From an uncultured Sulfolobales archaeon (lineage in GTDB: Archaea; Thermoproteota; Thermoprotei_A; Sulfolobales; NBVN01), in contig CALJEN010000006.1 of assembly GCA_938073905.1 (NCBI GenBank), positions 1-64,000 of the forward strand: a DNA stretch of 64,000 nucleotides, in the 5' to 3' direction. Made by a program: the position numbers and the translations under genes. Shown here piece by piece: positions 8,279-63,240 of this stretch (within the stretch, counting starts at the first letter, position 1; each line of letters opens with the position of its first letter). The notes under the pieces are model-generated. The model ran no database searches, was not told the origin of the DNA, and worked only from the letters and a program-made list of their open reading frames with translations.

Positions 8279-9238
8279 TCAGGGGTCGGCGCGCTTCAGG
8301 AGCTCCCCGACGAGCTCGTCGAGGTCTCCGTGAGCCGCGGCCACGTACTTGTCGGAGGCGCCGTAGTAGACTACGAGCTTCCCGTCCAGGACTACGTGAC
8401 CGCACGAGAAGACGACCCTCATCCCCTCGGTCTCGTACCACTCCCTCGGCTCCAGTATCGGGTACTCTAGCCTCGATAGGACGGTGGTGGGGTCCTCCCT
8501 GTCTAGGAGGGCCGCGCCGAGCCTGTAGGCCCCGTCGTAGGAGGACTTCGCGTGGTACACCATCACCCACCCCTCGCTGACCTCCACGGGGACCCCGGCT
8601 ACTCCCACCCTGTCGCTGTCCCAGGCTCCGGGCCTGGTCCTGAAGAACTCGTAGCCCCTGAGCCAGTAGCCCCTGAACTCGAGGTCCTCGACGAAGTCGA
8701 CCCACGCGTTCGGGAAGAACCTGTGGATGACCGCGTACCTGCCCCAGACCCTCCTGGGCAGGAGCGCCGCGTTCTTGTCCCAGACCCCCGGTGGCGATAC
8801 CGGGACGGGCCTAGCCCACCTGTCCCACAGGCCCTCGACGAAGTCGCGGACGTCTATGCTAGTCATGGCCACCCTGACGTAGTCGTAGGCGTCGCTGACG
8901 GCGGTGTAGAGCATGTAGAGCCTGCCGTCGAGGACGGTGACCCTGGGGTCCTCGCAGCCGACCGGGCCTATCCCCCCTACGATCCTCCTCTCGAACACCT
9001 CCCTTGGTCTGTAGACGGGCTCCTCGGCGACCCGCTCCACCGAGAACCCGTCGGGAGAGACCGCGAGCCCCACGGTCGACTCGAGCTCGTAGGACTGGGC
9101 CCTGAACAGTATGTAGACGGTTCCGCCGAGGACTACCGCTGCGGGGTTGAAGACCGCGAACTCCATGAACCTCCTCGAGGGGTCCGGCCTCAGTATCGGG
9201 TTGCCCCCGTACCTGGTGAGCCTGAACACCCTAGCCAC
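8279..9238 (-). CDS. GH130-family glycoside phosphorylase/hydrolase (copy 1)
   Basis: 319 residues. GH130 enzymes are five-bladed beta-propellers that phosphorolyse or hydrolyse beta-mannosides. Visible family motifs are YGGNPILRPD (N-terminus), FNPAAVV, the GCEDPRVTVLDGRLYMLYTA segment carrying the proposed catalytic aspartate, DKNAALLPRR, YHAKSS and the C-terminal LLDREDP...PILEPREWYE with VVYYGASDKY. No signal peptide, so it acts in the cytoplasm. It is the last gene of a three-gene operon and overlaps the start of the previous GH130 gene by 8 bp. Substrate and whether it is a phosphorylase are not decided by the sequence. Confidence 0.88.
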   Translation of the reverse strand: MARVFRLTRYGGNPILRPDPSRRFMEFAVFNPAAVVLGGTVYILFRAQSYELESTVGLAVSPDGFSVERVAEEPVYRPREVFERRIVGGIGPVGCEDPRVTVLDGRLYMLYTAVSDAYDYVRVAMTSIDVRDFVEGLWDRWARPVPVSPPGVWDKNAALLPRRVWGRYAVIHRFFPNAWVDFVEDLEFRGYWLRGYEFFRTRPGAWDSDRVGVAGVPVEVSEGWVMVYHAKSSYDGAYRLGAALLDREDPTTVLSRLEYPILEPREWYETEGMRVVFSCGHVVLDGKLVVYYGASDKYVAAAHGDLDELVGELLKRADP

Positions 9239-10208
9239 CCCTCAGCACGTATCTCACGAGGGCCTCCTCCTCCGCTTCGGCTACCGCTACGTGCCTGTCC
9301 GCTGCTCCGTAGTAGAGAAGAATCCTGCCGTCCCCCGTCCTGAGGGCCCCGGTCGGGAAGGCTATCCCCCTGAGGGGCTCCGAGAACGTCAGCTCGTACT
9401 CCACGGTCGGCGACAGGATGGGTCTCCTCGATACCCCGACGACCCTCGAGGGGTCGCTCTTGTCGAGCAGCACCGCCTTGACCCTGAACTCCCGGAAGTG
9501 TCCGTCCTCGTAGACTATGTCGGGGACGAAGAGGAGCCAGTACTCGTCGAGCTCTACGGGGGGAGTGCCTATCTCGACGAAGGGTCTCTCCGGAGTCCCC
9601 TCGAGCAGGACTCTCGACTCCGCCAGCGCCGACCTCCAGAACTCGGAGTCCAGGAGGTCCTCCACCCGGTCGAACTCCACCAGGACCACCCTCGACGGCG
9701 GCAGGTCCGGGTTCAGGGTGAGGGCCAGCAGGTACCTGCCGTCGTACCTTCTCGGAAAGACGAAGCCGGCCTTGGAGTTGTACGGGCATACGGGCCCGAC
9801 CTTGCTCACCCTGCTGAAGTCCTCGGTCAGGGCCAGGGCCAGGCGGACGGTCTCGGGTCTCGGGGGGACAGAGGAGACCGCTGTGTACGTCACGAAGTAG
9901 GTGCCGCCGACCAGCGTCACCCTGGGGTCCTCGGTAGCGTAGGACTCCCAGGGGTACTCGGGGCCGAAGAGCATGCGGCGGGAGCCGAACCCGTAGCCGT
10001 CCGCCGACTCCGCGTAGAATACCGTCGAGATCCTCAGGCTCTCGTAGGGCGACCTGGGGATGGGCCTGGAGAGGGCCCTGTAGAGCAGGACTACCTTGCC
10101 GGAGAAGGAGACGGCGGAGGGGTTGAAGACGGCCTCGGCCTCTAGCCAGCAGCGCGGGTCGGGAAGGAGCACTGGATTGCCCGAGAACCTCCTGAGCAAC
10201 AACTCCAA
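9231..10208 (-). CDS. GH130-family glycoside phosphorylase/hydrolase (copy 2)
   Basis: 325 residues, the most divergent of the three neighbours. Motifs: FSGNPVLLPDPRCW, FNPSAVS, ATEDPRVTLVGGTYFVTYTA, a PRRYDGRYL segment in place of the usual DKN-LLPRR, and LLDKSDPSRVVG...PILSPTVEYE with LLYYGAADRHVAVAE. The altered centre of the active site suggests a different specificity from copies 1 and 3. A TATA-like GCTTTTAAG sits at about 10231-10239, about 27 bp before the start, so it can be transcribed on its own as a leaderless mRNA besides read-through from copy 3. No signal peptide. Confidence 0.86.
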   Translation of the reverse strand: MELLLRRFSGNPVLLPDPRCWLEAEAVFNPSAVSFSGKVVLLYRALSRPIPRSPYESLRISTVFYAESADGYGFGSRRMLFGPEYPWESYATEDPRVTLVGGTYFVTYTAVSSVPPRPETVRLALALTEDFSRVSKVGPVCPYNSKAGFVFPRRYDGRYLLALTLNPDLPPSRVVLVEFDRVEDLLDSEFWRSALAESRVLLEGTPERPFVEIGTPPVELDEYWLLFVPDIVYEDGHFREFRVKAVLLDKSDPSRVVGVSRRPILSPTVEYELTFSEPLRGIAFPTGALRTGDGRILLYYGAADRHVAVAEAEEEALVRYVLRGG

Positions 10209-10237
10209 GCCCGGCAGACTCTAGACCCGGTGCGCTT

Positions 10238-11347
10238 TTAAGGGGACGCCCCCTTGCTCTCGAGCTCCGAGAGCGCGGAGTCGGCGATCCCCTCTATCTC
10301 CTCCAGAGAGACCTCGCCCAGAGCCACGAAGTAGTCCGAGGCTCCGTAGTACACGAGGAGGCTGTCCCCCACGACCGCGGAGCCCGTGGGATACATGACG
10401 TACGGCTTGCCCTCCGGGTAGACTTCGTACCAGCGCTCGGGCTCGGCCAGGGGAGCGTCCGGCCTGTAGAGGACCCTTGCCGGGTCCTCCGAGTCAAGGA
10501 GCATTATCCCCAGCTTGTACCTGTACCCGTCGGATGCCGCGAAGTCCGACGGCCTGAGGCCCTCCGAGAGGTAGTAGTTGTCCCAGCCGGTCACCCCGTA
10601 GTACACGAGGGCCCACGCTCTCCCGAGCTCGACGACCGAGCCCGCTCCTATCTTCCTGCTGTCCCAGTGCCTGGGCCTCGTCTTTATGGCCGGACTGCCC
10701 CACAGATACCTCCCGCGCTCGAACTCCTCGAGGTCCCAGACCGCGTCCACCCATATGTGCGGGAATATCCTGTGGAGGAAGACCCACCTCCCCCCTACTC
10801 TCCTCGGCAGCATGACGATGCTCTTGTCGGTCACGGACGGGTGAGTGATGAGGACCGGTCTGCTCCACCTCTCCCAGCGCTGCTCGAGGAAGTCCGCCAG
10901 CCTTATCCAGCTCATAGCTCCCCTCGGGGGGTCGACCCCGTTGTACGCCACGTACGTTAGGTAGAGAGTATCGCCGACCAGGGCGACCCTGGGGTCCTCG
11001 ACCCCGAAGCAGCTCCCCCCGGAGTGAGCCCTGGCGCACCTCTCGGGGTCCGCGAAGCTCTCCAGGGGCTCCAGGCCCTGCCCGCTCACGGACGGGTGGA
11101 CCTCGAAGGGCTCCCGCGGGACGTAGACGGGGCCGTCCGACCTCTCCGAGACCTCGCGCCCGCCGCCCAGCACCGCGAGCCCGAGGGTCGACACGCAGTT
11201 CCTCGAGACCTGCCTGTACAGGAGGTAGACCCTATCGCCGATAGCGAAGGCTGCCGGGTTGAACGTGCCGCCAGCTTCCCAGAAGCTCCCCGACCGCGGG
11301 CTTACCAGGGGGTTGTTCCCCCACCTCCTGAACCTCGGCGACCTCAC
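10238..11347 (-). CDS. GH130-family glycoside phosphorylase/hydrolase (copy 3)
   Basis: 369 residues from a GTG start, first gene of the three-gene GH130 operon. Motifs: GNNPLVSPRSG, FNPAAFAIGDRVYLLYR, GVEDPRVALVGDTLYLTYVA with the proposed catalytic aspartate, DKSIVMLPRRVGGRWVFLHR, YYGVTG, and MLLDSEDPARVLYRP...PLAEPERWYE with LLVYYGASDYFVALGE. It has about 40 more residues than copy 1, including an insert with two cysteines (ERCARAHSGGSCFG, about residues 107-120). A TATA-like CTTTAATAGG lies at about 11380-11390. Cytoplasmic by lack of signal peptide; probable role in processing oligo-mannosides or related glycans. Confidence 0.87.
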   Translation of the reverse strand: MRSPRFRRWGNNPLVSPRSGSFWEAGGTFNPAAFAIGDRVYLLYRQVSRNCVSTLGLAVLGGGREVSERSDGPVYVPREPFEVHPSVSGQGLEPLESFADPERCARAHSGGSCFGVEDPRVALVGDTLYLTYVAYNGVDPPRGAMSWIRLADFLEQRWERWSRPVLITHPSVTDKSIVMLPRRVGGRWVFLHRIFPHIWVDAVWDLEEFERGRYLWGSPAIKTRPRHWDSRKIGAGSVVELGRAWALVYYGVTGWDNYYLSEGLRPSDFAASDGYRYKLGIMLLDSEDPARVLYRPDAPLAEPERWYEVYPEGKPYVMYPTGSAVVGDSLLVYYGASDYFVALGEVSLEEIEGIADSALSELESKGASP

Positions 11348-11832: not shown

Positions 11833-13560
11833 CTACTGCGAGCCGGCTAGGTACCTCTCGAACTGCTCCGCGTACTTGTACCCGCTGTCCGGGAAGACGA
11901 GCACGTAGACCCCCTTCTCCTCGGCCACCCTCTCGAAGCCGCGGACCACGGCGCCCGCGCTCAGCCCTATCAGGAGGCCCTCGCTCCTCGCTACCCTCAC
12001 CGCGGCCTCCACGGCCTCGTGCTGCCTAACGTCGACCACCTCGTCGAAGTCTGCCCAGTGTACCCACTTCATCCCGCTCTCGATCCTCCTGATCCCCGGG
12101 ATCACCTCGCCCGGCGCCGGCTGAACCCCGACGATTCTGACGCTGCTCCCGTACTTGGTCTTGAAGTACACGGATATGGCGCTCATGTGGCCGGACGTCC
12201 CCAGCCCACCGACTACGCACGTGGGCCTCAGGTTGAGGCTGGCAAGCTGTCGGTCTATCTCCCTCGCTGTGTACTTGAGGTGGACCTTGAAGTTGGCGTC
12301 GTTCTCGAACTGGTTCAGATGGGCGGCCCCGTCAGCCCTCGCCTCCGAGTCCACCCGGCCTATCGCCTCGACCGTCAGGCTCGTGGGCACCCTAACGACC
12401 TCGGCTCCGAGGACCTTCAGGTACACGTCGGTCACTCTCTGTATGGTCATCGGGATGTAGAGCCTCGCCCTCAACCCCAGGACGTTCGCTATCGAGGCCA
12501 GGGCTATGCCCGTGTTCGTCGAGGTGGCCTCGTAGAGGACTCGCCCGAGGCTCCCAGCCTCCGCGGCCTCCTTGATCATGGACCAGGCTATCCTGTCCTT
12601 GACGCTGTTGCTGAACGGGTTGTAGCACTCGAGCTTCGCCCAGACGCTCCTGCTCTCCGTCGAGAAGGAGCTCAGCTTCACGAGCGGGGTGGGCCATCCC
12701 TCGTAGAGGAGCTCCAGAGTGCTGTTGTAGACTCTCAGAGCCTTCCTGGTTAGCCTCTCCCTCTTGAGCAGCCTCCTCAGCGGAAGGGGCTCGCTCAGCC
12801 CGACCCGCTCGGCTAGGAGCGCGAAGCTCCTGGGCGGGAGCTTCTCCCTCCCGAGACCGGCCCTCAGGATATCCCCCTTCGTCACGCCCTCCGAGGTCCT
12901 CACCTCCACCCTGTCTACGTCTATCATGAGCGCCGGAGCCTTCCCGACCGAGAGCAGGTCCAGCGCTTGGTACGCCTCGTAGCCGTCTAGCAGGACCCGC
13001 GTCTTCCTGTCTACGATCAGGGGCACGTCGACCGCTCCTGCCCTGAGGAACCTCGCGTACACCGGTAGCGCGTCCCTCAGGTCCACCCGCATGGCCGTCC
13101 TGATCCTCTCCAGCGGTACGAGCTCTAGCTCTCCCCTCAAGACCTCGAGCGGTACGTCAACCCTTTTCTCTATGGAGAATATGTGCTCTGGAGAGCCACT
13201 CCTCCTCACCATATGCCGGGACGTCTTCGGGGGGAAGAGTTTCCCCGTCAGAGCAGCCTCGACTACCTCCCGCTTCGTCAGGTTGATGCCGTCCCTCCAC
13301 GTGTGGACCTCGATGTCCGGAGACTCGTAGTCCACGTAGACTACGGGTATCCTCCTGCACCCGAGTCTCGCGAGGGCGTTGCGGCGGTGTTCTCCGTCGA
13401 GAACGGTGTTCGTCCTCCTGTCGACCGCTATCGCGTACTTCAGGACTCCGTCGGCGGCTATCTGCCGCGTCAGCTCTTCCAGGTGTTCCGGGTCGACCTC
13501 CTCGTGGGGGCGTAGCCTGTCCAGCTCGACGAGGTAGACCTCGTTAAGGCTATCGAGCAT
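11833..13560 (-). CDS. SerK-like (ParB-fold) serine kinase fused to cysteine synthase
   Basis: 575 residues with three parts. Residues about 1-125 match free-serine kinase SerK of the ParB superfamily: DGEHRRNAL and the later FPPKTSRHMV are its hallmark motifs. Residues about 135-265 look like a second, degenerate copy (LLDGYEAYQAL; LPPRSFALL). Residues about 285-575 are a fold type II PLP enzyme of the cysteine synthase family, with the PLP lysine in SNSVKDRIAW, TSTNTGIALAS for the substrate carboxylate and GGLGTSGHMSA for the PLP phosphate. SerK makes O-phosphoserine and archaeal O-phosphoserine sulfhydrylase turns it to cysteine, so one polypeptide may do both steps. ATG start; TATA-like CTTTTATACC at about 13592-13601. 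Confidence 0.87.
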   Translation of the reverse strand: MLDSLNEVYLVELDRLRPHEEVDPEHLEELTRQIAADGVLKYAIAVDRRTNTVLDGEHRRNALARLGCRRIPVVYVDYESPDIEVHTWRDGINLTKREVVEAALTGKLFPPKTSRHMVRRSGSPEHIFSIEKRVDVPLEVLRGELELVPLERIRTAMRVDLRDALPVYARFLRAGAVDVPLIVDRKTRVLLDGYEAYQALDLLSVGKAPALMIDVDRVEVRTSEGVTKGDILRAGLGREKLPPRSFALLAERVGLSEPLPLRRLLKRERLTRKALRVYNSTLELLYEGWPTPLVKLSSFSTESRSVWAKLECYNPFSNSVKDRIAWSMIKEAAEAGSLGRVLYEATSTNTGIALASIANVLGLRARLYIPMTIQRVTDVYLKVLGAEVVRVPTSLTVEAIGRVDSEARADGAAHLNQFENDANFKVHLKYTAREIDRQLASLNLRPTCVVGGLGTSGHMSAISVYFKTKYGSSVRIVGVQPAPGEVIPGIRRIESGMKWVHWADFDEVVDVRQHEAVEAAVRVARSEGLLIGLSAGAVVRGFERVAEEKGVYVLVFPDSGYKYAEQFERYLAGSQ

Positions 13561-13567
13561 TTTCGCT

Positions 13568-13602
13568 CCGTTAAAATTAACCCCGTTAAAGGTATAAAAG
13601 CT
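13568..13602 (-). promoter_or_regulatory. Promoter of the SerK-cysteine synthase gene with repeat elements
   Basis: On the minus strand a strong TATA-like CTTTTATACC (13592-13601) precedes the ATG at 13560 by about 32 bp. Between them the plus strand holds CCGTTAAA twice (13568-13575 and 13583-13590), 15 bp apart, and GTTAA/TTAAC arms around AA (13570-13581). The repeats cover the transcription start region and could be a repressor site. Confidence 0.5.
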
Positions 13603-14562: not shown

Positions 14563-14590
14563 TTAAACTCTTTAACCACGTTTAAACTCT
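14563..14590 (+). promoter_or_regulatory. Two direct repeats before the DGC-protein gene
   Basis: TTAAACTCT occurs at 14563-14571 and again at 14582-14590, with a 19-bp period (about two helical turns), directly upstream of the CTTTATCT TATA-like box (about 14602-14609) of the zinc-binding protein gene. The position and spacing suit an activator or repressor site, perhaps metal-responsive. Confidence 0.45.
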
Positions 14591-32388: not shown

Positions 32389-33003
32389 CTAGCCCAGCAC
32401 CTTGCCTAGCCTCTTCTCGACCTCGTCCCAGTTCACTATGCTCCAGAAGGCCTCTACGAACTTCCCCCTGTCGTTCCTGTAGTCCACGTAGTACGCGTGC
32501 TCGAAGACGTCGAGGACCATCAGTATGGGGAGCGTCGGGGCCACGTTGACATTGTGCTTCTCTATCTGCAGGATCAGCAAGCGGCCCGTCAGGGGGCAGA
32601 GTGCCAGGGCTGCCCACCCGGACCCCTCGACGGTCAGAGCGGCCTGGCTGAACTCCCTCCTGAACCTCTCGAAGCTCCCGAACTCCGCGTCTATCGCGTC
32701 CGCCAGCCTCCCGCCCGGTCTCCCGCCGCCCCTCCCCGGCGGCGCCATGTTGTACCAGAACAGCGTGTGGAGCACGTGGCCGCCGATGTTCCAGGAGAGC
32801 TCCTTGAGCACGGCCTTGACGTCCACCTCCAGACCCTCCCTGCGGGCCCTCTCGAGCCTCTGGAGGGCCGCGTTGGCGCCGTTCACGTAGGCCTGGTGGT
32901 GCTTGGTGTGGTGTATCCTGAGCTGCTCCTCGGACATGTGGGGCTGGAGGTCTCCGTAGCCGTACGGGAGCTCCGGGAGCGCGTAGAGCTTGGACTGGGC
33001 CAC
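32389..33003 (-). CDS. sodA: Iron/manganese superoxide dismutase
   Basis: 204 residues from GTG 33003. It converts superoxide to O2 and H2O2 in the cytoplasm. Metal ligands are recognisable: [11 protein letters not shown] near the N-terminus, [12 protein letters not shown] (second His), and [23 protein letters not shown] with the Asp and last His. The preceding frame to 33624 is an open shadow of the peroxiredoxin gene. It lies 65 bp downstream of that gene, with a GCTTTTTTCC TATA-like stretch at about 33052-33061, so it can be made alone or with it. Confidence 0.93.
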
Positions 33004-33068
33004 GGTCTCAACCCCACCGGAGACGTGCGTCGAGAGAGGAGAGGCCTCAGGGAAAAAAGCTTCTCTCC

Positions 33069-33752
33069 TCACTCCGGGAGCTTCTTCTTGCAGAGGAACC
33101 AGTCGACGCACTCGTAGCCCTTCTCGGCAGCCTCCCGCAGTCTCTTCTCGGCCTCCTCGGAGGTCGCCGGCGGCGGCACTATCACGGGGTCTCCAGGCTT
33201 CCAGTCGGCCGGCGTGGCCACCTTGTACTTGTCCGAGACCTGGAGGGCGTCCACGAGCCTCAGGATCTCCCCGATGTTCCTCCCCACGCTCATCGGGTAG
33301 TAGATGATGGCCCTGAGCCTCATCTCGGGGTCTATCACGAAGACGGCCCTCACCGCGGCCGTCGTGCTCTGCTTCGGGTGTATCATCCCGAACAGCTTGG
33401 CGACCTTCATGTCGAGGTCGGCTATTATCGGGAACGGGACGTCGACCCCGGTCTTCTCCTTGATCCACCTGACCCAGTCTATGTGGGAGTAGACGCTGTC
33501 GATGCTGAGGCCTATGAGCTGGACGTTCCTCTTCGCGAACTCCTGGTGGAGCCTCGCGAAGGCGACGAACTCGGTCGTGCACACCGGCGTGAAGTCGGCG
33601 GGGTGCGAGAACAGGATCACCCACTTCCCCTTGAAGTCGGAGAGCCTTATCTTGCCGTGGGTCGTCAGGGCCTCGAAGTCCGGCACGGTTTCTCCGATCG
33701 TCGGTATCGGTCTGACCTCCGCCTCCACTCGCGTCACCCCGTTCGAGCTCAC
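33069..33752 (-). CDS. Thioredoxin peroxidase (archaeal 2-Cys Prx6-type peroxiredoxin)
   Basis: 227 residues from a GTG start. It reduces hydrogen and organic peroxides. The peroxidatic cysteine is in [17 protein letters not shown] (about residue 52) with the catalytic Thr and the later arginine region; two cysteines near the C-terminus ([11 protein letters not shown]) match the archaeal decameric type, such as the Aeropyrum pernix enzyme, in which the first acts as resolving cysteine. It shares a palindromic promoter region (33768-33792) with the divergent Lrp-type regulator and precedes superoxide dismutase in the same direction. Confidence 0.93.
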
Positions 33753-40582: not shown

Positions 40583-42688
40583 CTAGGCGAAGAGCTCGAG
40601 GACCCAGTACGCGGAGACCGAGACGACCAGCGCTGCCAGGACCAGGTACAGGGACACTCCGAGCGCGTACCTGAGGCTCCTGCTCTCGTAGTATATCGCC
40701 GCGATCGTCGGCAGGCAGGGTATGTAGAACATGAAGAAGAAGAGGAGCCCGACCGCCTGCTGGAACGTCAGCCCCAGGGCCTCCAGAGCCTCGGCCTCCT
40801 CGACGTTGGACAGCGCGGCCGCGGAGGTCACGAGACCCTCCTTCGCTACGGCTCCGTAGAGGAGGGCGAACCCCACCTTCCAGGAGGACGAGGGGTCGAG
40901 CCCGTAGACCGCCTCCGCGAGCCTGCCCACGGCGGACCCGACCAGTGCCGCGTACGAGTCCGCGGGGTCGCTGGCGAGTCCCGCGGGTCCGTAGGACACG
41001 GCGAGCCACGCGGCGAGGGCCATCGCGAATATCACGGTCCCGGCCTTGGCGAGGAAGTGGCGGACCCTTATCCAGGAGTTCCACCACACGACCCTAGCGC
41101 TCGGCCTGTGGAGCGGGGGTATCTCCATGACGAGCTCCGGAGCCTCGCCCGCCTTGAACACGAGAGCCCTCAGGAGCTTCGAGGTGAGGAGGAAGAGGGC
41201 TATAGAGAGCATGTAAAGGGAGAAGACCAGAGAGGCCTGGAGCAGGGGTCGGCCGGGGAAGAGGTACTGGGCGAAGTACATCATGACCACGAACCTCGCC
41301 TGGCACAGAACGAACGGCACCGAGCCGAGCACCTGGAGCCTCTCGTGCTCGTCTATGGCGATCCTGGACTGGAGAGCCGCCGGGACGTTGCACCCGAACC
41401 CAAGCACCAGCGGGTACAGAGACCTGCCGGAGAGCCCGAACGCTCGGAGGAGCCTGTGGAGCGAGTGGACCATCCTGGGACCGAGGCCGCTGTCCTCGAG
41501 CACGGAGATCAGGGCCGAGACCACGAGGACTAGGGGGGCGAAGCTCAGCACCAGGCCCACCCCGCCCAGGATCCCGTCGGCGACCAGGGCCGCCAGGGCC
41601 TCGCTGTAGCCCTCGAGGCTCCCCCTCACCGAGTCCCCGAGGAGCGAGAAGGCCCGGGCCAGGAGGCCCGACAGGCTGTACTCCTCGAGGGCCTCCGCGG
41701 CGCTCTCCCAGCCGGCGAGCCTCATGAGCGCGTTGAGGGGGAACCCAGTGTTGACGCCGAACGCCCCGAGGAAGACGAGGAAGAGCGTGGCCAGCGAGAG
41801 TACTGGCCCTAGCCTCGGGCTCAGGAAGAGCCTGTCCAGGTAGAGCGATGCCCTGCTCTCCCTCACGGCCACCCTGACCACGGCCCCCTCCAGTACCTCC
41901 GAGGCCTTCTCGTACCTCGCGAACACCGCGACGTCCTCCGGGTGCCTGCCGTAGACCCTCCTGAACTCCTCCCTGAGCTCCTTAGCGAGCTCGAGGACAT
42001 CCCCCCTGGAGACCAGCCTGGCCACCTCCTCGTCGCCCTCGAGGAGCTTCAGGGCCACCCAGGTGCTGGAGAGGGGCGTGCTCCCGAGCTCCCTGGAGAG
42101 CCTCTCGATGTACTGGCCCAGGGGTCCGTAGTCGACGCGCAGGGGAGGCCTGGGACCGCCTCCCCTCGCAGCCTCGACGAGCGCGTCGAGCAGCTCCTTC
42201 ACCCCCTCCCCCGTTAGGGACGATATGGGGATCACCGGCACCCCGAGCCTGCTCGAGACCTTGCCCACGTCTACGTGTACGCCCCTCTTGTGGGCAAGAT
42301 CCCACTTGGTCAGGGCGACCACCAGCCTCAAGCCCATCTCGGCCAGCTCCAGCGGGAGGTAGACCGACCTCTCCACGATTAGGGGGTCAACGAGAGCCAG
42401 CACAGCGTCGTAGGAGCCCTCGAGCAGGAACCTCTTGGTTATAGCCTCCTCGGGCGAGGTCGTCGCAAGGCCGTAGACCCCCGGGAGGTCGACCAGGCAC
42501 ACCCTCGCTCCTCGGTGCTCGATCCTCGCGACGGCCATCTCCACAGTAGTCCCGGGCCACGCCGCGACCCTCACGGCCTTCCCGGTGACGTGGCCGAAGA
42601 AGGTCGACTTGCCCGTCGACGGCTGCCCGACCACCGCTACAACCAGGTCGCACTCCTCGCCGACCTCCACCGCTCGGTGACGGGCCAC
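40583..42688 (-). CDS. feoB: Ferrous iron transporter FeoB
   Basis: 701 residues. N-terminal G-protein domain: G1 GQPSTGKST, G3 DLPGVYGL, G4 TKWD and G5-like SSLTGEG, followed by a helical guanine-dissociation-inhibitor-like region (about 190-270) and a membrane domain with two Gate motifs (VLSFAPLVLVVSALISVLEDSG; FGCNVPAAL). It imports Fe2+. The GTG start is preceded by GGGTG; the promoter has CTTTATTTT (about 42718-42726) and an adjacent DtxR-like box. No feoA is encoded next to it. The usual NKxD is TKWD here, a common archaeal variant. Confidence 0.95.
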   Translation of the reverse strand: MARHRAVEVGEECDLVVAVVGQPSTGKSTFFGHVTGKAVRVAAWPGTTVEMAVARIEHRGARVCLVDLPGVYGLATTSPEEAITKRFLLEGSYDAVLALVDPLIVERSVYLPLELAEMGLRLVVALTKWDLAHKRGVHVDVGKVSSRLGVPVIPISSLTGEGVKELLDALVEAARGGGPRPPLRVDYGPLGQYIERLSRELGSTPLSSTWVALKLLEGDEEVARLVSRGDVLELAKELREEFRRVYGRHPEDVAVFARYEKASEVLEGAVVRVAVRESRASLYLDRLFLSPRLGPVLSLATLFLVFLGAFGVNTGFPLNALMRLAGWESAAEALEEYSLSGLLARAFSLLGDSVRGSLEGYSEALAALVADGILGGVGLVLSFAPLVLVVSALISVLEDSGLGPRMVHSLHRLLRAFGLSGRSLYPLVLGFGCNVPAALQSRIAIDEHERLQVLGSVPFVLCQARFVVMMYFAQYLFPGRPLLQASLVFSLYMLSIALFLLTSKLLRALVFKAGEAPELVMEIPPLHRPSARVVWWNSWIRVRHFLAKAGTVIFAMALAAWLAVSYGPAGLASDPADSYAALVGSAVGRLAEAVYGLDPSSSWKVGFALLYGAVAKEGLVTSAAALSNVEEAEALEALGLTFQQAVGLLFFFMFYIPCLPTIAAIYYESRSLRYALGVSLYLVLAALVVSVSAYWVLELFA

Positions 42689-60776: not shown

Positions 60777-62684
60777 CTAGGCGGGAAGGCCCAGAGCCCT
60801 CCTCTTCCTGTCTATGTGCTCGAGCATCAGCTCGGCGGCCTTCTTCGGGTCGGGCTCCACGACGAACCTGGCTCCCACGAGCCCCTCGATGTCCTCCGTG
60901 AGGAGCTTCGTCACCGCCTTGCTCCCGAGTACAGGCGGCACCACTCCCAGGTGCACGTTGACTCCCTGAGCTACGAACCACGTCCCTATGGCCACCGCTT
61001 TGCTGCTCATGGCCTCCGGAGCGGAGCCGAACACCGGGAGGTCTGGTATGTCGACCCCGAGGGCCTCCGCCAGGGCGTTGAGCGCGACCAGGATCCTGGA
61101 GTTGTCGACGCAGCTGCCCATGTGGAGGCACGGGGGTATCTTCAAGGCCTCGAGGACCCTCCTCAGCCTGATGCCGGCCAGGGACTGGGCCTCCAGAGTC
61201 ATGAGGCCGGCCTTGGCGGCCGCGGCGGCCCAGCAGCCAGTCCCCACGACCAGGACGTCGTTGGCTATGAGCTCCTTGGCTAGCACGGTGTGCCCCCTGT
61301 CCTGAGGCACCTTCGGGTTGTTGCAGCCCACTATGCCGACGATCCCGCGTATGTTCCCCCTCTTCAGGGCGTCCACCAGGGGCGCTAGGGTGCCGCCGAG
61401 TGCCTCGAGTATTGCCTCTACGGAGAACCCGGCTATCACCTTGGACTTCACGTCCGGTATGTAGACCCTCTCCTTCATCCTCCTGGGGTAGTTCTCTATG
61501 GCCGTTCGCAGGACCTCCCTGGCCACTTCGTCAGCCCTGTCCGCCTTCCACTCTATGTGGATGGCCCCGGGGATCCTGGCTACGGGCATCGTGGTTATCA
61601 GCTTCGTGTGGAAGCACCCGGCTATGTCGGCTAGGGACGGCATCAGGCACTGGTAGTCGACTACCATGGCTTCGACGGCGCCGGTGGCCAGGGCCATCTC
61701 CTGGTGGAGGAGGTTGCCGGCTAGCGGAACCCCCAACCGCATGAGAGTCTCGTTGGCCGTGCAGCATATGCCGCAGACGTTGATGCCTCTGGCTCCGACG
61801 CTCTTGGCCAGGCCGAGCATCTCCTCGCTCCTGGCCAGCTCGGCCACCTTCATCGAGAGCAGCGGGTTATGACCGTGCACTACGACGTTGACCTCGTCGG
61901 GCTTCAGCACGCCCAGGTTCGCGTAGCTCTCTACAGGCCTCGGCGTGCCGAACAGGGCGTCCTGGAGCTCGGTAGCTGTCGCCATGGCGTAGCAGTCGGC
62001 CAGGGAAGTCCTCAAGCCGTGGAGCAGCAGGCTTCTGTAGTCGGCGTCTACCCCCATGTGTATCCTGTGGAGGGCCTCGAAGGCCTCGCGCCACACGGAC
62101 CTGGGCGCGATGCCCAACCTCTCGAAGACCCTCCTGCGCTTCTCGATGGAGTAGGCCTTGAGCATGTTGAGAGTCTCCTCGGTAGTCCTCGTCATGTCCT
62201 CCTCGATCATCCTGACGACATCGACGGCGAGGTCTAGCACGGGTCTCGTCTCGGCGTCGGGTATGCCGAGCCTCTTGGCGATGGCCCTCAGCTTCTTCTC
62301 GTCGGCTATCCTGTAGGGGAACGGTCTGCCCTCGGACGCGCTTCTCACGGCCTCCTTGAGGGTCTCCAGCACGTGGAACGCGTGCTCTCCGTGGGCCGCC
62401 TCACCGTTGGCTATGTGGAACAGCACTCTCCTGGCTACCATGGTGTCGGCGTCGGCACCGCATATCCCCTTGGTGGGTCCCACGCCGTAGGGGTCTATCC
62501 TGCAGGGACCCATCATGCAGAACCAGCAGCACGTCCCCAGCAGGCCGAAGCCGCACTGCGGCTGCATCCGCTCGTACCTGTGGTGGACGGTCTCTATACC
62601 CAGCTCCTCGGCTCTCCTTATCATCAACTGAGCCGCTCTATCTACGGTCTTCTCCTCCGGTCTCCTGATCGGGACTACCGACAC
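60777..62684 (-). CDS. cooS: Nickel carbon monoxide dehydrogenase catalytic subunit
   Basis: 635 residues from GTG 62684, which has the Shine-Dalgarno GGGGTGA; GTG 62699 and ATG 62723 are in-frame alternatives that overlap cooF. It oxidises CO to CO2 with ferredoxin-type acceptor. Cluster B/D ligands CGFGLLGTCCWFCMMGPCRIDP are near residue 45, and cluster C segments VVHGHNPLL, NVCGICCTANE, GCNNPKVPQDRGH, GTGCWAAAAAKAGLM and CLHMGSCVDNSRI follow in the expected order. The length is normal for stand-alone CooS. No acetyl-CoA synthase genes are seen in the window, so a respiratory or redox role is likely. Confidence 0.96.
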   Translation of the reverse strand: MSVVPIRRPEEKTVDRAAQLMIRRAEELGIETVHHRYERMQPQCGFGLLGTCCWFCMMGPCRIDPYGVGPTKGICGADADTMVARRVLFHIANGEAAHGEHAFHVLETLKEAVRSASEGRPFPYRIADEKKLRAIAKRLGIPDAETRPVLDLAVDVVRMIEEDMTRTTEETLNMLKAYSIEKRRRVFERLGIAPRSVWREAFEALHRIHMGVDADYRSLLLHGLRTSLADCYAMATATELQDALFGTPRPVESYANLGVLKPDEVNVVVHGHNPLLSMKVAELARSEEMLGLAKSVGARGINVCGICCTANETLMRLGVPLAGNLLHQEMALATGAVEAMVVDYQCLMPSLADIAGCFHTKLITTMPVARIPGAIHIEWKADRADEVAREVLRTAIENYPRRMKERVYIPDVKSKVIAGFSVEAILEALGGTLAPLVDALKRGNIRGIVGIVGCNNPKVPQDRGHTVLAKELIANDVLVVGTGCWAAAAAKAGLMTLEAQSLAGIRLRRVLEALKIPPCLHMGSCVDNSRILVALNALAEALGVDIPDLPVFGSAPEAMSSKAVAIGTWFVAQGVNVHLGVVPPVLGSKAVTKLLTEDIEGLVGARFVVEPDPKKAAELMLEHIDRKRRALGLPA

Positions 62685-62688
62685 CGAC

Positions 62689-63240
62689 TCACCCCGCACG
62701 CGTGCTGTACAAAACCATTCCACCCTTGGGCACTAGGCCCGTGACGAGCTCCCTAGCCTTCTCCTCGTGGATCTCGCGCATCAAGCTCTCCAGGGTGCCG
62801 AACTTGAGAGCCCTCGTGGGGCACGCCTCGACGCACGCCGGCTGGAGGCCCCTCCTGACCCTGTCGATGCAGAAGTCGCACTTCGTCACGACCTTCTCGG
62901 CCGGGTCGAGCGTTATGGCCCCGTAGGGGCAGGCCAGGACGCACCCCTTGCACCCGATGCACTGCTCCTTCTTCAGGAGGACTGGCCCCTCGGGGGTCTT
63001 CACGAGGGCCTCAGTTGGGCACACCTCGACGCACGGAGGCTTCTCGCAGTGCATGCACCGAACCGGCACGTCGTAGCCCATGGCGTGGACGACCCTAATC
63101 CTGGGAACGGGCCTGGGGGTCTCGAGGGGCGCGGTGAGTATGCTCTTCGTGAGCGAATGCTCCGTAGCACACGCCAGGTAGCAGGACAAGCACCCGAGGC
63201 AACGCTCTATATCAACGTAGATGAAGACATGATCAACCAC
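62689..63240 (-). CDS. cooF: CooF-like 4Fe-4S electron transfer protein
   Basis: 183 residues from a GTG start. Four [4Fe-4S] cluster motifs: CLGCLSCYLAC near the N-terminus, CMHCEKPPCVEVCP, CIGCKGCVLACPYG, and CDFCIDR...CVEACP. This is the polyferredoxin (DMSO reductase iron-sulfur-like) type that takes electrons from CooS. It ends four bases before the cooS start and is preceded by its own promoter, so cooF-cooS forms an operon. The redox partner beyond CooF is not in the window. Confidence 0.93.
   Translation of the reverse strand: MVDHVFIYVDIERCLGCLSCYLACATEHSLTKSILTAPLETPRPVPRIRVVHAMGYDVPVRCMHCEKPPCVEVCPTEALVKTPEGPVLLKKEQCIGCKGCVLACPYGAITLDPAEKVVTKCDFCIDRVRRGLQPACVEACPTRALKFGTLESLMREIHEEKARELVTGLVPKGGMVLYSTRAG

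Follow-up and report, generated by a model that had tools for sequence, protein, structure and literature searches.

A serine kinase-type domain joined to a CysO-type cysteine synthase in an uncultured Sulfolobales archaeon: a predicted two-step route from serine to cysteine

Can both steps that would lead from serine, by way of O-phosphoserine, to cysteine reside in one archaeal polypeptide? The question is raised by a 575-residue reading frame in a stretch of 64,000 nucleotides from an uncultured Sulfolobales archaeon (contig CALJEN010000006.1, positions 1 to 64,000; hereafter the window), in which the initial annotation had recognized a SerK-type domain, a degenerate copy of it and a PLP domain, in that order. 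As listed in Table 1, this architecture was borne out by comparisons with NCBIfam, PDB, hhalign, Foldseek and Pfam. The NCBIfam ranking places cysteine synthases at the top, followed by SerKinSerKArch (residues 7-92, E=2.9e-19) and SbnI, and Pfam detects PALP at residues 287-556 (E=3.6e-49) together with a sub-threshold match to ParB_N at residues 9-76. The full-length AlphaFold model (pLDDT 89.8, pTM 0.87) was folded from alignment A5, which is free of stand-alone SerKs; a mixed alignment placed these on the middle domain. The frame opens with ATG, and the start codon is supported by conserved putative operators just upstream of the starts of its relatives. The same domain order, which it had been proposed to seek elsewhere, is intact in seven further loci (L001-L006 and L009; 61-82% identical), and the fusion is therefore not an assembly artefact. 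A chimeric contig was also ruled out: four congeners have copies of a desuccinylase-type gene of this contig at 71-74% identity, so the contig is consistent with its genome. Searches of an open-access literature library gave no description of a SerK-CysO fusion.

Table 1. Coordinates of the fusion gene, its domains, key residues and upstream elements in the window
Feature	Position	Strand	Evidence
SerK-CysO fusion gene, 575 aa	11833..13560	-	ORF, family matches, 7 other loci alike
SerK-type ParB-fold kinase domain, minimal form, residues 1-143	13132..13560	-	Sequence and profile matches
Degenerate SerK-fold domain, HE and HR lost, residues 144-272	12745..13131	-	hhalign, Foldseek
CysO-type O-phosphoserine sulfhydrylase PLP domain, residues 277-575	11836..12732	-	Pfam, PDB matches
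H19-E20; E20 equivalent to Glu30 of T. kodakarensis SerK	13501..13506	-	Alignment; invariant in 20/20 SerK-type rows
D55-G-E-H-R59, GxxR-type phosphate motif with E57 in place of His	13384..13398	-	Alignment
P110-P-K-T-S-R-H116, aligned with C-terminal PKTTRH of T. kodakarensis SerK	13213..13233	-	Alignment
K321, lysine of the PLP Schiff base; K127 in A. pernix CysO	12598..12600	-	Alignment; 34/34 rows
R491, equivalent of A. pernix Arg297	12088..12090	-	Alignment; 34/34 rows
Putative operator (palindrome) TTAACCCCGTTAA, 29 bases before the fusion start	13577..13589	.	Pattern search
Degenerate second putative operator TTAACGGAGCGAA at -14; exact copy in relatives	13562..13574	-	Sequence comparison
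TATA-box-like TTTTATA, inferred promoter role	13593..13599	-	Direct reading of sequence

The N-terminal part of the fusion matches 5x0b, a free serine kinase, with E=6.9e-14, or E=1.3e-21 in a profile search, and SbnI is also among its PDB matches. From residue 11 onward, most of the kinase domain is modelled with pLDDT above 85. The DGEHR and PPKT-R-H motifs recognized at the outset are present, and the alignment keeps the catalytic Glu (E20) together with H58 and H116. In structures 5x0e-g and 5x0j-k, Ala or Gln replaces the T. kodakarensis counterpart of E20; GxxR has been described as the P motif (PMC12704722). Across alignment A1, which comprises 8 fused and 12 free-standing SerK-type domains, H19, E20, D55, G56, H58, R59, P110, T113 and H116 are invariant and K112 is nearly so; all eight fused sequences keep K112 as well. 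The fused kinases carry DGEHR (7/8) or DGVHR (1/8, L001), compared with DGHHR in 12/12 free-standing SerKs. SbnI aligns with DGVHR, so His may not be obligatory at that position of the motif. The domain scores 69.2 bits against the SerKinSerKArch cut-off of 380, only the shared core of the 244-residue model being aligned with a domain of ∼143 residues, and we therefore refer to it as a SerK-type homologue and not as a member of that equivalog. In comparisons that are not saturated, its dN/dS of 0.07-0.25 indicates a constraint similar to that on the PALP domain (0.07-0.20); the kinase domain is under purifying selection.

No fused member retains the first His of DGHHR, which would also suit a SerK-fold domain that has lost its kinase activity and instead senses a nucleotide or serine to regulate an otherwise ordinary CysO-type enzyme; ParB-fold domains do serve as NTP-binding modules (PMC12704722), and the middle domain provides one precedent of such decay. 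We consider this unlikely, because all remaining motif residues, the catalytic Glu among them, are the same in the eight fused sequences, whereas the decayed middle domain has lost them. Further, SbnI, with its DGVHR, is reportedly a free serine kinase, and no SerK besides the fusion was found in the window genome or in the genome of its sister L001. The sub-threshold ParB_N label could instead be taken to mean that a chromosome-partition or DNA-binding ParB protein had been joined to a PLP enzyme by chance. This is scarcely credible: SerK and SbnI score far above ParB, on which ground a partition role was rejected; the helix-turn-helix (HTH) and dimerisation domains that follow the ParB fold in partition proteins have no match above cut-off in the Pfam scan of the fusion; and the linkage of serK to cysO is tight across archaea.

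The closest solved structure to residues 277-573 is Aeropyrum pernix CysO (1wkv, E=1e-65), the next cysteine synthase following at E=7e-37. Arg297 of A. pernix CysO reportedly contributes to the recognition of O-phosphoserine (PMC5120207). Matches to SbnA and to cysteate synthase appear in NCBIfam at weaker scores than the cysteine synthase models. These weaker matches leave some room for a protein in which serine is phosphorylated but the PLP domain uses another nucleophile to give a beta-substituted alanine other than cysteine, in the manner of SbnA or, with sulfite, of cysteate synthase, and SbnI-SbnA is indeed a SerK-like/PLP pair with a different product. Such an outcome seems very improbable, however, as CysO leads the solved relatives by a wide margin, the cysteine synthase models score highest, and the putative operator of the gene recurs near NifU- and TusA-like sulfur genes.

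The middle domain was correctly called degenerate, in that it is a second SerK fold devoid of the HE and HR residues of SerK, but it is not an extra module. Compared with A1 by hhalign, it scores 99.5% (E=1.9e-22); a SerK-profile search of its own genome matches it (E=4.1e-12); and when it is modelled alone with AlphaFold (pLDDT 90.7), the top nine PDB entries in Foldseek are SerK-type proteins or SbnI. Unfused CysO-type proteins carry it too, in a long form (alignment A2) and a short form (A3), which hhalign relates to each other and to SerK at 98.2% each. Consistent with this, the full model aligns with A. pernix CysO over ∼440 columns (382-residue target, TMt 0.88), the N-terminal domain of CysO included. 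As the middle domain is thus the normal N-terminal domain of CysO-type enzymes, the fusion amounts to SerK plus a normal CysO. The lowest identity is that of this domain, a catalytically dead SerK fold whose role is probably structural or allosteric. The reading of the A. pernix CysO N-terminal domain as a relic kinase is supported by structure, its direct sequence match to the SerK fold being weak (E=0.55).

A scan of genome contigs gave 53 loci, among which the complete fusion is present in the window and in the seven loci named above. In six unfused loci a serK-like gene (150-180 aa) lies directly before the cysO gene, and in six others it is divergent from the cysO gene and next to or near it. 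Stand-alone SerK-type genes occur in many of 250 genomes sampled from the phylum of the window; among the matches listed for these genomes, the only kinase domain in a fused frame is the window's own. In the tree, the fused SerK domains form one clade (99/98), and in the PALP tree the fused, kinase-deleted and ThiS-fused forms do so as well (100/98). Judging from these sequences, the fusion arose once, by the joining of adjacent serK and cysO genes. Its clade mixes MAGs labelled as Bathyarchaeota and as Sulfolobales, a pattern to be read with the caveat that it depends on the labels, and in the genus of the window the other members are of the split serK/cysO type; both observations suggest horizontal transfer, which probably brought the fusion to the window's lineage.

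The kinase has also been lost from the fusion. In L007 (3974-5344), the protein starts with MSENYGEIH and continues with IERKVGVPLEF, the kinase having been excised in frame, and in L008 (3986-5509) only the C-terminal part of the kinase is left, with a decayed motif; these in-frame deletions are two independent events. A separate SerK, with a frame of 253 aa in one case and 188 aa in the other, is encoded in both genomes. The genomes of L010, L012 and L018, which are without a fused kinase, likewise encode another SerK, the window genome and that of L001 have none apart from the fusion, and the L009 genome has both the fusion and a separate SerK. Such an exchange would be expected if the fused domain were a working SerK. 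Together, the split gene pairs, the single origin and the separate SerKs of the kinase-deleted genomes support the succession of predicted activities that had been put forward, from serine to O-phosphoserine to cysteine. A different fusion was seen at L030:1991-3610, where a ThiS/MoaD-type sulfur-carrier domain (PF02597, E=1.2e-15, GG end) precedes the middle and CysO-type PLP domains, in the same genome as the SerK fusion L006. At L018, just the tail of such a ThiS fusion is left, cut by a tRNA-like sequence directly upstream.

The suggestion that cysteine is made here without serine acetyltransferase agrees with the genome. No SATase_N was detected in the window genome, and its sole CysE match is far below the cut-off (31 versus 211 bits); this genome is, however, ∼79% complete and contains a second, ordinary cysteine synthase gene (L055). 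It also encodes a 2-hydroxyacid dehydrogenase that is a possible SerA, so O-phosphoserine might come from 3-phosphoglycerate as well. The fusion is flanked by genes for a GH130 glycosidase and a vitamin-uptake-type transporter in the window and by MgtE and PhoU/TrkA_C genes in L009, and among the neighbours of these two copies none has a link to cysteine except an HTH gene. The GH130 gene (10238-11347) belongs to a minus-strand segment, 8279-11347, with two similar-looking ORFs alongside, and two GH130-type genes adjoin the fusion in L001 as well. Elsewhere on the minus strand of the window, a 411-residue frame (32389-33624) matches superoxide dismutase at residues 214-409 alone, and its first 213 residues may represent a fusion or an over-long frame. 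Also on that strand, an anaerobic CO dehydrogenase catalytic subunit (60777-62723) and FeoB (40583-42688) score above cut-off.

The putative operator WTAACNNNGTTAW lies upstream of cysO-type genes in several archaeal lineages (L001-L009, L010-L013, L015, L019 and L038). In fused genes the palindrome reads TTAACNNNGTTAA and is placed at about -34 and -14; in unfused relatives it reads ATAACNNNGTTAT, often at -11. In a set of 38 loci, 38 sites were counted, of which 26 lie in the 150 bases before a cysO-type gene, a region that makes up 1.8% of the sequence; this is given as a plain count and not as a probability, since the loci are related. The window genome contains five sites, compared with none for a backwards-pattern control. 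One is upstream of the fusion gene. Of the others, one is intergenic and adjoins genes for a NifU-type scaffold and a TusA-like protein, one separates the gene for a PALP protein from an aldehyde ferredoxin oxidoreductase-like gene, one overlaps the start region of a 112-residue HTH-like gene located away from the fusion (L120:1518-1856), and one is upstream of a metal ATPase. Homologues of the HTH-like gene accompany many of the relatives: in L002-L006, L008 and L009 they are divergent neighbours of the fusion or of what is left of it, and in L011-L014, L020 and L038 they lie downstream of a cysO-type gene. Its product has conserved cysteines and was called HTH by inspection of the sequence, no named family scoring above cut-off; this cysteine-containing protein is a candidate regulator at the putative operator. 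An operator-like site with one mismatch (TTAACCACGTTTA) was observed at 14572-14584 of the window, ∼1 kb from the fusion start. Lone matches in AT-richer genomes, mostly inside genes, look like chance and were set aside. In two species, a divergent PALP (threonine-synthase-like) protein with a winged-helix-looking C-terminal region (L121:1749-2912 and L135:139-1317) shares an operator-bearing intergenic region with the aldehyde ferredoxin oxidoreductase-like gene.

Overall, the fusion is likely to be a two-step cysteine-forming enzyme, in which the N-terminal SerK-type domain would phosphorylate serine to O-phosphoserine and the C-terminal CysO-type PLP domain would exchange the phosphate for sulfide to give cysteine, with the dead SerK-fold domain that is normal to CysO-type enzymes between them. 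What the analysis establishes is the architecture, the retained residues, the homology, the gene linkage and the single origin; both activities, the donor and any advantage of the fusion are inferred. Counted against this reading are the DGEHR/DGVHR motif, the low SerKinSerKArch score, the L055 cysteine synthase and the possible SerA, as well as a SerK-like archaeal protein reported to bind CTP and not ATP (PMC12704722). A broader scheme, in which CysO-type enzymes are relics of an older SerK fusion with a dead serine kinase as their N-terminal domain, a live SerK was later fused in front again in this clade, O-phosphoserine is channelled and a cysteine-containing HTH protein reads a cysteine/sulfur regulon, the fusion gene included, at WTAACNNNGTTAW, is tentative and, taken as a whole, rather doubtful. 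The fusion bears on the routes by which archaea make cysteine: it links the predicted serine-kinase route to cysteine in one polypeptide and lends weight to a role of the small ParB-like genes that adjoin archaeal cysteine synthase genes. One protein thus offers kinase, sulfhydrylase and channelling for study together, and two extensions are open to test: a relic-kinase origin of the N-terminal domain of CysO, and the putative operator together with the HTH protein proposed to act on it.

Among known systems, SerK of Thermococcus kodakarensis (TK0378, 5x0b; PMC5120207) resembles the kinase domain in its ParB fold, catalytic Glu (E30/E20), DGxHR and C-terminal PKT-RH motif. It differs in being unfused and in having DGHHR and a ∼90-residue insert, which the fused kinase lacks, so that PKT-RH lies within residues 204-227 in T. 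kodakarensis SerK but directly after the core in the fusion. A. pernix CysO (1wkv, 3vsc) is alike in its PLP domain, in the K127 and R297 equivalents and in the placement of its N-terminal domain, but it is without a serine kinase domain, and its N-terminal part of ∼82 residues is shorter than the middle domain of the fusion. The CysO carrier and CysM of Mycobacterium tuberculosis, a system that uses a sulfur carrier of the ThiS/MoaD type and is not known to involve a serine kinase, share O-phosphoserine-dependent cysteine synthesis and may be compared with the ThiS-fused L030. Finally, Staphylococcus SbnI and SbnA, although separate proteins that yield a different product in a bacterial siderophore pathway, are alike in that a SerK-like kinase, with DGVHR as in L001, supplies O-phosphoserine to a PLP enzyme.
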